Shown one piece after another: positions 16,450 to 35,481 of a DNA stretch of 64,000 nucleotides (positions are counted from its first letter, which is position 1; each line of letters opens with the position of its first letter). The DNA comes from Thermoleophilia bacterium. Its GTDB lineage: Bacteria > Actinomycetota > Thermoleophilia > Miltoncostaeales > Miltoncostaeaceae. A program made the translations under genes and the position numbers. Below the pieces are notes generated by a model. The model was not told the origin of the DNA. It saw only the letters and a program-made list of their open reading frames with translations, and searched no databases. The stretch spans positions 1 to 64,000 of the forward strand of contig JANQPH010000039.1 of assembly GCA_028285405.1 (NCBI GenBank). Direction: 5' to 3'.

Positions 16450-16522
16450 GCCCTCGTAGCTCAGTGGATAGAGCACAGGTTTCCTAAACCTGGTGTCGGA
16501 GGTTCGATTCCTCCCGGGGGCA
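16450..16522 (+). tRNA. tRNA-Arg (anticodon CCT)
   Basis: Full cloverleaf. Acceptor GCCCTCG pairs with CGGGGGC (one G-T), the anticodon stem CAGGT/ACCTG encloses TTCCTAA with anticodon CCT at 16483-16485, and the T arm is GGAGG-TTCGATT-CCTCC with discriminator A. No encoded CCA. It reads AGG. Its 3' part is the attachment site of the island that follows. Confidence 0.96.
16481..16521 (+). repeat. attL: direct repeat within tRNA-Arg
   Basis: 41 bp from the anticodon loop to the end of the acceptor stem, identical to 20229-20269. The flanking bases differ (T against A before, A against G after), which fixes the repeat length. Confidence 0.92.
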
Positions 16523-17613: not shown

Positions 17614-17883
17614 GTGACAGCCATGCGACTGCGAACCGAGTACGACCAGGCTCACGACATCGTCTACGTCCACCTCGTTGATCCGCCAGCGCCCCGAGTC
17701 GCTCGGTCGATCGACCTCGACCGATGTCGGCGTCTAGACGAGGACGCCGGGGGGACAACCGTTGGTCTCGAGATCGAGTACCCATCGCGGGGTGTTGACC
17801 TGACAGGCGTGCCGAACTCGGACTCGGTTGCCGAGGCCCTTGCCGCGCTCGGGCTCCGAGTGACGCGCTCGACTTGTGGGTAG
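17614..17883 (+). CDS. DUF2283-like small protein
   Basis: 89 residues (81 if the ATG at 17638 is used; the GTG and first ATG are close together). The beginning, MRLRTEYDQAHDIVYVHLVD, and the later GTTVGLEIEYPSRGVDL fit the DUF2283 pattern (a short beta protein, often beside toxin-antitoxin or mobile genes). Function unknown. Its last codons overlap the integrase fragment. Confidence 0.55.
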   Translation: MTAMRLRTEYDQAHDIVYVHLVDPPAPRVARSIDLDRCRRLDEDAGGTTVGLEIEYPSRGVDLTGVPNSDSVAEALAALGLRVTRSTCG

Positions 17884-18290
17884 CTAACACCTCAGTCGCC
17901 CGAGATGAGCAGGAGAGCTCCTGGGGCGAGCGTCGGATCCCGGTGCCGTCGGACCTGCTGAGCGAGCTCCAGCTCTCGCGCGACACGGCGATGTACCCGG
18001 CTGATCGCGACTTCGTCTTCGCGACGCAGGCGGGGACGCCACTCACCGAAAGCAACGCGACGCGCCGGATCATCAAGCCGGCCGCCAAGGCAGCTGGTGT
18101 GCCCTGGGCCGCGTGGCACGACCTCCGCCGCGCCGCTGCATCGCGCTGGGCGCGAGAGGGGCACGGTCCACGGGCGATGCAGCGCCTTCTCGGCCACTCG
18201 GACCCCAACCTCAGCCTCGGCGTCTACACCTGGGTACGGGACGACGACCTCCCGAGCGGCGACACCCTCGCGCTCCGCTCAGCTGGGTAG
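17874..18290 (+). pseudogene. Tyrosine recombinase (integrase), C-terminal fragment
   Basis: The open frame keeps the distal catalytic motifs: the HDLRR box (HxxR) near residue 82, LLGHSD with the second histidine, and the nucleophile Tyr in LGVYTWV, followed by the DDDLP tail seen in actinobacterial element integrases. The N-terminal arm-binding and core-binding domains and the first catalytic Arg are missing. A full integrase is about 350-400 residues; this has about 120 homologous ones. It must have catalysed the original insertion. Confidence 0.75.
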
Positions 18291-18405
18291 GGCGGCGATC
18301 GTTAGCGTCCTCAAGCGCGTCCCTCACCGGGACGGTTATCCACAAGTCGTCCGCCTGGCGGATGAGGATGCGCAGTGAGAGCCTTGCATAGCGCACCCTG
18401 CTATG

Positions 18406-18419
18406 CGAACGTATGTTCG
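18406..18419. promoter_or_regulatory. Putative LexA (SOS) operator
   Basis: CGAACGTATGTTCG is a perfect 5+5 palindrome with a 4-bp spacer. It matches the Gram-positive/actinobacterial SOS box (CGAAC-N4-GTTCG), and the right flank A also fits. It ends 15 bp before the GTG of the DprA-like gene. A second inverted repeat, GCATAG...CTATGC (18386-18391/18401-18406), abuts it. Confidence 0.65.
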
Positions 18420-18434
18420 ATCGAAGGCACCCCC

Positions 18435-19316
18435 GTGAGCAGCCCAGAGACGATCGCCACGCTTGCCCTAATGGAGAGTCGCGCCCTGCCGTGGAACCGG
18501 CTTGCCGGTGCGATAGAGGAGGAGGGCAGCGCGATCCGACTCCTCAAGAGCCTGGACACGAGCGCACAGGGGCGTCTGTTTGAGGACAGCGGCTCCGCCG
18601 CCTCCATCACCGAGTTCGAGGCGCGGGTCGAGGAGTGGGGACGAGAGGGCATCGCGGTCGTTGGGATCCTCGACCCCGGTTACCCGGGAAATCTCCGGAT
18701 GGTCCACGACCGCCCCCCCGTACTCTTTGTGCGTGGCACGTTGGCCGACCCCGACGAGCGTTCCGTCGCGGTCGTTGGGACTCGCCGACCGACGGAGCGG
18801 GGTCTCGAGCAGGCGCGAAGTTTCGCGCGCGACCTAGTGGATGCCGGCTATGTCGTTGTGAGTGGCCTCGCTGAGGGCATCGACACTGCAAGTCACCTCG
18901 CGGCCCTGGAGGCGCGTGGCCGTACGATCGCCGTGGTCGGCACTGGTCTGCGACAGGCATTCCCGAAGACGAATGCAGGACTGCAGGACCGCCTTGCGCG
19001 GGACCACGCTGTGCTCTCGCAGTTCCTCCCGGACCAGGGTCCTAGGCGCTGGACGTTTCCTCAGCGGAACGCGGTCATGTCTGGGTTCGCGAGGGCAACC
19101 GTGGTTGTTGAGGCATCAGGGACGAGTGGCGCCAGGATGCAGGCTCGCCTCGCTCTTGAGCACGGGCGACCCGTGTTCCTGCTCCGCTCCCTGATGCGGT
19201 TTAGTTGGGCCCGCGACTACGCGGAGCGACCGGGCGTCTACGTGGTGGACTCCGGTCATGAGGTGATCGTCGACCTAGAGCGTCTCTACAGCGAGGAGCT
19301 TTCTCTCGTCGCGTAG
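18435..19316 (+). CDS. DprA/Smf-like protein (ShosA-like candidate)
   Basis: 293 residues with a DprA Rossmann core. An N-terminal helical domain (about 1-75) precedes VAVVGTRRPTERG (about 112), VVSGLAEGIDTASHLAA (about 142), TIAVVGTG, FPQRNAVMSG and VVVEASGTSGARMQA. The C-terminal winged helix of competence DprA is absent. GTG 18435 is chosen because it follows the LexA-like box and starts the N-terminal domain; an in-frame GTG at 18375 would make the operator coding. The phosphoribosyltransferase gene follows after 31 bp. DprA plus PRTase in a mobile island recalls ShosTA rather than natural transformation. Pairing-based function is inference. Confidence 0.82.
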   Translation: MSSPETIATLALMESRALPWNRLAGAIEEEGSAIRLLKSLDTSAQGRLFEDSGSAASITEFEARVEEWGREGIAVVGILDPGYPGNLRMVHDRPPVLFVRGTLADPDERSVAVVGTRRPTERGLEQARSFARDLVDAGYVVVSGLAEGIDTASHLAALEARGRTIAVVGTGLRQAFPKTNAGLQDRLARDHAVLSQFLPDQGPRRWTFPQRNAVMSGFARATVVVEASGTSGARMQARLALEHGRPVFLLRSLMRFSWARDYAERPGVYVVDSGHEVIVDLERLYSEELSLVA

Positions 19317-19347: not shown

Positions 19348-20103
19348 GTGGCGACGCTTACCGTCGAAGAGGCCAGCGCGACGTACGCCCGCGCGATGAG
19401 AAACGTCAGGCGCCCTGGCCTCGGCATCTGCACGATCTGCAAGACCTTTGTCGACCAGAAGTACGAGCGGTGTCTTCGCTGCAACGGTCAGCGCGCCGAG
19501 CTCGACGCGGTGCTCCCAATCACCTATAGCGAGCATCTCGGTCAGGTCCACCTCGCGCTGCGCCGGTACAAGGACGGCGGCCTGGCTGAGCAGCGATACG
19601 CCGCGCCGCGGCTTAACGGAATCCTCTGGCGGTTCCTAAAGGCCCACGAGGGCTGCCTAGCCCGCGCCGTCGGCAGCTCTGGCTTCGAGATCGTCTGCGC
19701 TGTGCCTTCCAGCACGCCGAGCCGTGACAACGAGCGGGATCGGCTTCGGCGGATCTTGCAGGCCTGTGGCCCGGTCAAGGAGCGCTTCGAGCGGCTGCTG
19801 CTGCCCACGGGGGACGTCCCGGAAGGTCGGGCCTATGACCAACGTCGATACGAGGCTGGTCGCTCACTCGCCGGGGAGGACGTGCTGCTTGTCGACGACA
19901 CCTGGGCGGGGGGCGGGCACGCGCAATCCGCCGCCACGGCCCTAAAGGCTGCAGGGGCAGGGTCAGTCGGTCTCGTGGTGATCGGGCGGCACGTTCAACC
20001 TGACTGGCGCGTCGGGGATGACGGAGAGACCTGTGCAGCGCTACTTGACCAGCTCCCGAAGGTCTTCGACTGGGACGACTGTGCTTTGCACGGAGACGCG
20101 TAG
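19348..20103 (+). CDS. Zinc-ribbon phosphoribosyltransferase, ComF-like (ShosT-like candidate)
   Basis: 251 residues. An N-terminal CxxC...CxxC zinc ribbon (CTIC and CLRC, about 27-45) is followed by a ComF-like section (LRRYKDGG) and a type I PRTase fold with the PRPP-binding loop VLLVDDTWAGGGHAQSAA (about 178-195). It lies 31 bp after the DprA-like gene on the same strand and is followed by a hairpin, so the two form an operon. ComF proteins belong to DNA uptake, but ShosTA-type systems also pair a PRTase effector with a DprA homologue. I favour the latter because of the island setting. Confidence 0.8.
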   Translation: MATLTVEEASATYARAMRNVRRPGLGICTICKTFVDQKYERCLRCNGQRAELDAVLPITYSEHLGQVHLALRRYKDGGLAEQRYAAPRLNGILWRFLKAHEGCLARAVGSSGFEIVCAVPSSTPSRDNERDRLRRILQACGPVKERFERLLLPTGDVPEGRAYDQRRYEAGRSLAGEDVLLVDDTWAGGGHAQSAATALKAAGAGSVGLVVIGRHVQPDWRVGDDGETCAALLDQLPKVFDWDDCALHGDA

Positions 20104-20228: not shown

Positions 20229-20269
20229 TTCCTAAACCTGGTGTCGGAGGTTCGATTCCTCCCGGGGGC
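20229..20269 (+). repeat. attR: duplicated tRNA-Arg 3' end
   Basis: Exact 41-bp copy of 16481-16521. It lacks the 5' half of the tRNA, so it is not a functional tRNA and marks the right end of the island. Confidence 0.92.
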
Positions 20270-33168: not shown

Positions 33169-35481
33169 GTGCCCAACCCCTCTCGCCCACGGCGCCGCTG
33201 GCGCGGCGCGCGCGGACTCGCCGCCGCCTCGGTCGTCGCCGCCGGCGCCGCGCTCGCTCCGAGCGCCCTCGCCGCCACCGGCGACCCCGTCCTCATCAAC
33301 GAGGTGCTCGCGAGCCACACCGGCACGGACGACACCGGGTACGTCGAGCTGTTCGGCACGCCCGGCACCGTGCTCGACGGCCTGAGCCTGATCGTGGTCG
33401 AGGGCGATGCGGGCGCCAGCCAGGGCGCCATCGACCGCCGGATCGACTTCGGCCCCGGCGACGTGATCGGCTCGAACGGCTTCTTTCTCGTCGGGAACCC
33501 GGCCGGCCTCTCGGCCAACTACGGCGTGACCCCCAATCTGACGGTCGCAAACAACTTCCTCGAGAACAGCAGCGAGACCATCGCGCTCGTCGAGACCTCC
33601 TCGATCGCGGGCGCCACGGTCGGCGGCGGCGAGGTCGTGCGGGACTCGATCGCCCTGACCGACGGCGACGCGGGCGATGTGGCCTTCTTCGGCGCCCCCG
33701 AGCTCGGACCGGACGGCCCGTTCTTTCTGGCCGGCGCGCGCCGGGTCACCGACGGCGTGGACACCGATGCCGCGGCGGACTGGGTCTTCGCGGACTTCGG
33801 CCTCGGCGCCGCCAACACGCCGACCGGCGGCGACACCCCGCCGCCCCCGCCGCCCCCGCTGGTGAAGATCCACGAGATCCAGGGGCCCGGCGCCACCTCG
33901 CCGATCGTCGGCGAGACGGTCGAGATCCGGGGCGTCGTCACCGGCATCGACGACGAGGTCGGGGCCAGCTTCACCCGGACCTTCCCCGAGGACCGAGGGA
34001 TCTTCGTGCAGGAGGAGCGCGGCGACGAGGACGGCGATCCCAGGACGTCTGAGGGCATCTACGTCGGCTTCGTTGACGCGGACGAGTACACGCCCGGCCA
34101 GCAGGTGAAGGTCGTCGGCACGGTCAAGGAGAAGTTCGGCCTGACCATGCTCGCCGAGGTCATCGGCGAGGAGCCCGAGGTGATCGGAACGGCGCCGCTG
34201 CCTCGGCCGAAGGTGCTCCGCCCCCGCGCGGCCAGGAACCAGGACCCGGTTGCCCGCGAGTACTACGAGCGGCTCGAGGGCATGCGTGTCCGCGCCCGGC
34301 TCGCCACCGCCAACTCGGGTGGCACGAACAAGTTCGGAGAGCTGTTCCTGACGCTCGGTCCGCGCAAGTCGCGGGTCTTCCGGGACTCGGTTCGCCCTGA
34401 CCTGTTCGCCACCGACGCCGACGCCGGCGCCGGCAACCCCGTGAACCCGCGCAAGCCGGACACCGCGTCCACGACCCTGGTCCGCGCGGACCTGTTCGAC
34501 CGCGCCTACAACGTCGTCGGGCCCTTCACCTACTCGTTCTCCAACTACAAGGTGATGGTGCAGCCGCAGCGGCGCCCGCGGGTCCTCGACACCGGGGTGA
34601 GGTTCCCGTACCGCGGCATCACGCGCCCGCGCCACCACGAGACGAACATCGCCTCCTACAACCTCGAGAACTTCTTCCCGGTCGGTGGCGAGCTCGACCT
34701 CGGCACGGTCTCCGAGGAGGAGTACCGCGAGAAGCGCAACCGCCTCGCGAGCGGCATCCGCAAGCTCCTCAAGCGGCCGCATGTCGTGGCCGTCCAGGAG
34801 GTCGTGAACGAGGAGATCCTCGACGACCTCGGCGACCGGATCGGCGGCTACGAGGGGTATCTCGAGGAGGGCAACGACAACCGGGGCATCGACGTCGGAT
34901 TCCTCGTGCGCCGCGGTGTGCGCGTCCTCGACGTGCGCCAGCTCGGCAAGACCGCTCCGAACCCGACCACGGCGACGTGCTCGGACGTGGACGGGTTGCT
35001 GTTCGATCGGCCGCCGCTGGCGATCGAGGTCAAGCGCCACCACACCGCCTTCTGGGTGGTCAACAACCACTTCTCGTCCAAGTCGGCGCCCGACGCGTGC
35101 CGGGTCGCCCAGGCCGAGTTCGTGCGCGACTGGGTCGAGGGCATCGAGGACCGCGGCGGTGAGGTCATGGTCACCGGCGATCTGAACGCCTTCGAGGACG
35201 AGACACCGCTCGCGGCGCTCGAGGACGGAACCACCTCGCTCGAGAACCTGTGGGACGAGGTCCCGGCCGGGCTGGCCTACAGCTTCCAGTTCAGCGGGCG
35301 GCTGCAGACGTTGGACCACACGCTCGTGACCGACGGTCTCGAGTCGAGGGTCAAGCGGTTCCGCTACGCGCCCATCAGCAACGACTACTACGAGCGCGAC
35401 CGCCGGCCCAGGGACGGGCACTCGGCGAGCGACCACGACGCGCCGGCCGTGACGCTGCGCACCTTCGGTCGCGACCGGTAG
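33169..35481 (+). CDS. Secreted nuclease: lamin-tail-like domain, OB-like domain and EEP nuclease
   Basis: 770 residues. Signal peptide (Arg-rich start, cleavage near ALAAT at about 35), a lamin-tail-like domain (about 40-180; PVLINEVLAS...YVELFG), a PPPPPP linker, an OB-like domain (about 225-300; IVGETVEIRGVVTGI) and a C-terminal endonuclease/exonuclease/phosphatase domain (about 490-765; ASYNLENFF, VVAVQEV, NNHFSSKS, VTGDLNAF, DHTLVTD, ASDHDAP). This is the ExeM/NucH-like architecture of extracellular DNases. GTG start. Together with the 5'-nucleotidase fusion it could degrade external DNA to phosphate and nucleosides. Confidence 0.9.
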   Translation: MPNPSRPRRRWRGARGLAAASVVAAGAALAPSALAATGDPVLINEVLASHTGTDDTGYVELFGTPGTVLDGLSLIVVEGDAGASQGAIDRRIDFGPGDVIGSNGFFLVGNPAGLSANYGVTPNLTVANNFLENSSETIALVETSSIAGATVGGGEVVRDSIALTDGDAGDVAFFGAPELGPDGPFFLAGARRVTDGVDTDAAADWVFADFGLGAANTPTGGDTPPPPPPPLVKIHEIQGPGATSPIVGETVEIRGVVTGIDDEVGASFTRTFPEDRGIFVQEERGDEDGDPRTSEGIYVGFVDADEYTPGQQVKVVGTVKEKFGLTMLAEVIGEEPEVIGTAPLPRPKVLRPRAARNQDPVAREYYERLEGMRVRARLATANSGGTNKFGELFLTLGPRKSRVFRDSVRPDLFATDADAGAGNPVNPRKPDTASTTLVRADLFDRAYNVVGPFTYSFSNYKVMVQPQRRPRVLDTGVRFPYRGITRPRHHETNIASYNLENFFPVGGELDLGTVSEEEYREKRNRLASGIRKLLKRPHVVAVQEVVNEEILDDLGDRIGGYEGYLEEGNDNRGIDVGFLVRRGVRVLDVRQLGKTAPNPTTATCSDVDGLLFDRPPLAIEVKRHHTAFWVVNNHFSSKSAPDACRVAQAEFVRDWVEGIEDRGGEVMVTGDLNAFEDETPLAALEDGTTSLENLWDEVPAGLAYSFQFSGRLQTLDHTLVTDGLESRVKRFRYAPISNDYYERDRRPRDGHSASDHDAPAVTLRTFGRDR

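Follow-up and report, generated by a model that had tools for sequence, protein, structure and literature searches.

We analyzed a stretch of 64,000 nucleotides (hereafter the window) from a Thermoleophilia bacterium of the phylum Actinomycetota (assembly GCA_028285405.1, contig JANQPH010000039.1), in which a LexA/SOS box lies in front of a gene pair encoding a DprA-like protein (shosA) and a phosphoribosyltransferase-like protein (shosT). Our results suggest that this box is very probably an operator through which the host LexA controls shosTA, such that the pair would be switched on by RecA-triggered cleavage of LexA. The box, CGAACGTATGTTCG, is the single exact occurrence of CGAAC-N4-GTTCG in the window and it ends 15 nt ahead of the GTG at 18435, as a preliminary description of this DNA had stated. 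The same description called it a perfect palindrome, which is true of its 5-bp arms only (CGAAC/GTTCG): the reverse complement is CGAACATACGTTCG, positions 6 and 9 are mismatched, 12 of the 14 bases are palindromic and the central GTAT is not self-complementary. The proposed match to the actinobacterial SOS operator was confirmed, both by the motif of the host's own SOS genes and by the motif tCGAAC-N4-GNNCGa defined for LexA by chromatin immunoprecipitation sequencing in Streptomyces venezuelae (PMC9380542), which the box fits with exact arms. When one base is added on each side, the resulting GCGAACGTATGTTCGA differs from TCGAAC-N4-GTTCGA by one mismatch.

The motif was searched across the host genome (2.41 Mb, 57 contigs) and each search was compared to a control with the reversed motif. 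CGAAC-N4-GTTCG was found at seven sites against none for the control, and in all seven the N4 spacer starts with a purine and ends with a pyrimidine; the shorter core GAAC-N4-GTTC was found at 21 sites against seven. Copies of this core were identified upstream of lexA (C1:33513, with the TIGR00498 match starting at 33570), recA (C47:24696, RecA match from 24834), dnaE2 (C29:503), a gene for an ImuB-like Y-family polymerase with weak IMS matches (C43:3050) and dinB (C11:17345). The preliminary description had proposed to look for the motif at recA, lexA and dnaE2, and all three genes carry it. Because the core precedes these five genes, the host LexA almost certainly uses GAAC-N4-GTTC as its motif. 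The protein possesses the LexA DNA-binding and peptidase S24 domains, with the Ala-Gly of VAAGEP, the Ser of GDSM and the Lys of ATVKRL, which we take to be the self-cleavage residues. Finally, the sequence CTATGCGAAC-N4-GTTCG was common only to shosA and dnaE2 among the loci retrieved.

Relatives of shosA were gathered by protein similarity rather than by the presence of a box, using 397 genomes from the phylum, 399 from a single order and contigs of named genomes. Across the 399 genomes, ShosA matches (approximately 137 bits and up) separated from canonical DprA (approximately 108–123 bits). We then counted exact GAAC-N4-GTTC boxes from −200 to +30 of the ShosA start, with expectations derived from dinucleotide shuffles. 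The box was found in 21 of 53 actinobacterial ShosA loci when 0.18 were expected, and in none of 28 canonical dprA loci used as a control. It remained in 18 of 50 loci once the three that had given rise to the idea (the window, L141 and L170) were set aside, and it was present in 10 of 29 ShosA clusters defined at 60% identity. Within the same loci, which include phage and plasmid records, the 150 bp upstream of the genes contained 23 sites in 9,450 bp against seven in the remaining 270,608 bp, a 94-fold difference in density. The exact box was seen, for instance, in Salinispora fenicalii (L063), Actinomadura parmotrematis (L068), a Pseudonocardia plasmid (L212) and the Gordonia phage Vasanti (L210). 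When the exact core or up to one mismatch to the 16-mer was accepted, 31 of 57 loci presented a box; these occurred in each of the two main branches of the ShosA tree, and their distribution requires 14 changes, at least nine of them on well-supported branches. In leaders aligned on the box, the arms reached 1.79 bits per column against 0.20 for the flanks, where the low flank value is the informative one since these loci were selected for their box.

These results bear on the possibility that the box is a chance match or the dead relic of a former mobile element. The 21 copies of GAAC-N4-GTTC in the host genome, some of them within genes, would be compatible with such an origin, as would the decayed state of the island that carries the pair, with its integrase remnant. 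Against it stand the absence of any reversed 14-mer in the genome, the CTATGC lead that is also found exactly at dnaE2 and the strong recurrence of the box at this position among relatives. In addition, 17 genomes with ShosA contain 12 to 75 CGAAC-N4-GTTCG sites each (0 to 7 for the reversed control), so that a chance match within 150 bp of one chosen gene would be expected about once in 1,000. We rejected a chance origin based on the genome control, the shuffles, the dprA controls and the reversed motif, and we consider this explanation as a whole, relic included, most unlikely.

Some ShosA loci of proteobacterial type present a different operator at the same place. Burkholderia phage Mana encodes a ShosA (PADLOC ShosA, 323 bits) and a ShosT (141 bits), and a perfect TACTGTATGCATAAACAGTA, the classical proteobacterial LexA box, lies approximately 100 bp upstream of its ShosA gene. 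Overall, CTGT-N8-ACAG was found in nine of 65 distinct upstream regions of this type (0.13 expected, none for the reversed control) and in six of 31 clusters at 70% identity, at a density 28-fold higher than elsewhere in these loci; this set includes viral contigs without an assigned host. No LexA box was detected in P2-type loci with a long second protein, including P2_4C9 (424-aa second protein), and a scan of viral contigs with a Gordonia phage ShosA as query returned no relative. A LexA motif thus recurs ahead of ShosA, and in each phylum it is the typical one. An operator that varies with the phylum but occupies a constant place is better explained by LexA than by inheritance of the sequence. 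The change of motif also argues against binding of the site by a repressor other than LexA, for instance a regulator that belongs to a phage or island and recognizes a similar sequence. Many of the relatives reside on phages, plasmids and islands, and helix-turn-helix genes adjoin ShosA in Gordonia phages, as such a regulator might predict. We nevertheless regard it as very improbable: the motif in the window is the one found at the host's lexA, recA and dnaE2, and the island in the window was not found to encode any repressor.

The pair behind the box is, by sequence, of ShosTA type, with a predicted role as a toxin–antitoxin or phage-defence system. ShosA matches the PADLOC ShosA model (220.5 bits, E = 7.5e-66) and PDB 9vzo, a ShosA, is among its structure-database matches. 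This protein does not reach the level of a canonical DprA, as it scores 183.2 bits with the NCBIfam dprA equivalog, below the cut-off of 191.15. ShosT matches the PADLOC ShosT model (E = 9.4e-7), and its alignment with the neighbors of other ShosA genes revealed four zinc-ribbon cysteines and a DDT phosphoribosyl pyrophosphate (PRPP) loop in common. The profile of this family matches phosphoribosyltransferases and the solved ShosT chains in PDB. An AlphaFold model of ShosT is of low confidence (predicted local distance difference test score of 54); phosphoribosyltransferases make up nearly all of its PDB matches, which are weak, and the model does not by itself settle the identity of the protein. 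The PRPP loop of the window's ShosT (19888–19940) reads DDTWAGGG, against DDTWTTG or DDTWTSG in most relatives, and a change in activity is possible. Two further loci (L038 and L039) contain ShosT-like genes with no adjacent ShosA detected and were left out of the analysis.

It is tentatively possible that LexA control is real and that its purpose is DNA repair or the supply of antitoxin, ShosA being raised to protect the cell or the island and phage defense being incidental. The first gene behind the box is indeed shosA, DprA-family proteins pass single-stranded DNA to RecA (quoted in PMC9122126) and ShosA is reported to bind DNA and to promote recombination (PMC12593503). On the other hand, 31 bp separate shosA from the toxin-like shosT, which lies downstream in the same orientation, no terminator was visible in the part scanned, and the exact box favors loci linked to ShosT: it was found in 20 of 38 ShosA loci with an adjacent ShosT detected versus one of 15 loci without.

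Translation of shosA most likely starts at 18435 and not at 18375, in agreement with the preliminary description. A GAAGG is found 7 nt ahead of this GTG, and the N-terminus that it defines aligns with those of other ShosA proteins. The bias in GC content by codon position is weaker in the 20 codons from 18375 (0.50/0.60/0.65) than in ShosA (0.73/0.51/0.76), which is weak evidence given 20 codons only. Since the start at 18435 has its GAAGG and the N-terminus agrees with other ShosA proteins, the box most likely lies in an untranslated leader. Next to it, the preliminary description had noted a second inverted repeat, GCATAG/CTATGC. This repeat is real and slightly longer than described, with 7-bp arms (GCATAGC/GCTATGC) around a 7-nt loop; it has one base in common with the LexA box, the first of the box, and shuffled versions of the window yielded no repeat like it. 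The ten bases CTATGCGAAC that run into the box possibly constitute a −10 element. In the leaders of L141, L142 and L063, TTGACG or TTGATT is found 17 nt ahead of a TATGTT within the box; with this spacing, the box would cover the −10 element in these three loci.

The shosTA pair resides in an island of 3,748 bp at whose two ends the 3' part of a tRNA-Arg gene is present as an exact 41-bp repeat (Table 1), as in islands integrated into a tRNA gene. A complete integrase, as needed for self-excision, was not found on the island, which retains only the C-terminal part. The preliminary description had tied the box to excision of the island; with an integrase that is a C-terminal remnant located upstream of the box, we see no reason to view the box as governing excision. 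The island also contains a small open reading frame (17614–17883) with a borderline match to DUF2283.

Table 1. Features of the shosTA island and of the shosA leader in the window (1-based positions).
Feature	Position	Strand	Evidence and remarks
tRNA-Arg (CCT), island attachment site	16450..16522	+	ARAGORN
Left 41-bp repeat, 3' part of tRNA	16481..16521	+	Exact copy of 20229-20269
Tyrosine integrase, C-terminal remnant	17874..18290	+	Pfam Phage_integrase, profile positions 88-167 of 172 only
Inverted repeat GCATAGC-N7-GCTATGC	18386..18406	.	Arms 18386-18392 and 18400-18406; window shuffles 0
CTATGCGAAC, ten bases running into the box	18401..18410	+	Same at the dnaE2 box of the host genome
LexA/SOS box CGAACGTATGTTCG	18406..18419	.	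Exact match; 16-mer GCGAACGTATGTTCGA at 18405-18420
GAAGG, likely ribosome-binding site for GTG 18435	18423..18427	+	Read from the sequence; predicted
shosA, DprA-like protein, 293 aa	18435..19316	+	Pfam DNA_processg_A 198 bits; PADLOC ShosA
shosT, short phosphoribosyltransferase-like protein with N-terminal zinc-ribbon cysteines, 251 aa	19348..20103	+	PADLOC ShosT
Right 41-bp repeat, island right end	20229..20269	+	Exact copy of 16481-16521

SOS control might alternatively serve the mobile element itself: the pair would be turned on when a prophage or island is induced and would kill or hold the cells losing the element, rather than act on an incoming phage. The island, phage and plasmid contexts of these genes are in line with this scenario, and phages commonly link genes to SOS. 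The window's island, in contrast, has no working integrase, its box is not upstream of the integrase and some solo chromosomal ShosA loci also carry a box. We consider this alternative unlikely.

Under LexA control, dimers of LexA bound to the box in the leader or promoter of shosA would hold the shosA–shosT operon silent. Single-stranded DNA would build up upon damage, or upon replication and DNA breakdown during phage infection, and RecA filaments would set off the self-cleavage of LexA. The pair would then be expressed together with recA, lexA and dnaE2, and the DprA-like ShosA and the phosphoribosyltransferase-like ShosT would act as a toxin–antitoxin or defense module. The sequences show the box, its position, the motif that it shares with the host's SOS genes and its recurrence ahead of ShosA, whereas LexA binding, repression, induction, the position of the promoter and the action of ShosTA in this host are predictions. 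Several points weigh against this model: a scan for sigma-70-like promoters around the box found none; the window's ShosA lacks close relatives with which its own leader could be directly footprinted; about half of the actinobacterial ShosA loci have no recognizable box, which indicates that such control is not universal; and CTGT-N8-ACAG is absent from most proteobacterial-type loci, where alternative LexA motifs were checked in part only. The regulation is more certain than its purpose, and arming of a defense or abortive response, support of repair and guarding of a mobile element would all fit.

More broadly, short-type ShosTA systems may commonly belong to the SOS regulon, each under the operator that LexA uses in its phylum, with repeated gain or retention of this operator across Actinobacteria and Proteobacteria and with LexA cleavage as a general arming step; we view this generalization as evenly balanced. 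How phage-defense toxin modules stay quiet and then become armed is poorly known. If shosTA is part of the SOS regulon in many lineages, DNA-damage signaling would be a built-in trigger, DNA-damaging drugs would turn the pair on, and the RecA–LexA loop would include a toxin–antitoxin pair in which the antitoxin is a member of a RecA-handling family.

Other copies of the box were noted in the host genome. Two GAAC-N4-GTTC sites 25 bp apart lie upstream of mraZ (L029:2193 and 2218; G000:C52:68692 and 68717), the first gene of the division and cell-wall cluster, and control of division genes by LexA would be notable. An exact CGAAC-N4-GTTCG is found upstream of an rpoD-like sigma-70 gene (L036:2254; G000:C24:25753), and another exact box (L035:1922; G000:C14:45421) adjoins no gene recognizable by Pfam. 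A radical SAM gene of the Rv2578c family has a further box at its start (L032:2204; G000:C38:5703); for Streptomyces venezuelae, too, a radical SAM gene under SOS control is mentioned.

In E. coli, tisB and symE are toxin genes that are repressed by LexA and induced by DNA damage. The control proposed for shosTA would likewise place a toxin-encoding module under LexA, with unrelated proteins. The LexA regulon of Streptomyces venezuelae (PMC9380542) presents the operator tCGAAC-N4-GNNCGa upstream of recA, lexA and polymerases, as in the present host; that study reports no ShosA or DprA target and the word "DprA" is absent from its text. LexA control of ShosTA was not mentioned in the ShosTA papers found in the open-access literature searched, where the one paper listed for ShosTA together with the SOS response or LexA was on AbpAB and cited ShosTA in passing only. 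Because subscription papers, including the primary 2025 study of ShosTA, were outside this search, we make no claim of priority. The DprA–phosphoribosyltransferase defense system of P2-like phages protects E. coli from T7 and lambda (Rousset et al. 2022; PMC9122126) and is likewise a DprA-like and phosphoribosyltransferase pair on a mobile element, but the pair described here resides on an actinobacterial island with a LexA box and its defense role is a prediction. A further close comparison is ShosTA of E. coli, for which a 2025 review describes toxicity of ShosT through purine metabolism, DNA binding by ShosA and triggering by Gp0.7 of phage T7 (PMC12593503). Both systems are two-gene operons encoding a DprA-like and a phosphoribosyltransferase-like protein (PDB 8zvb, 9vzo), and the PADLOC models of ShosA and ShosT match the window's pair. 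The ShosT described here differs in its length of 251 aa and its zinc-ribbon N-terminus, whereas the solved ShosT chains are 432–447 aa long.
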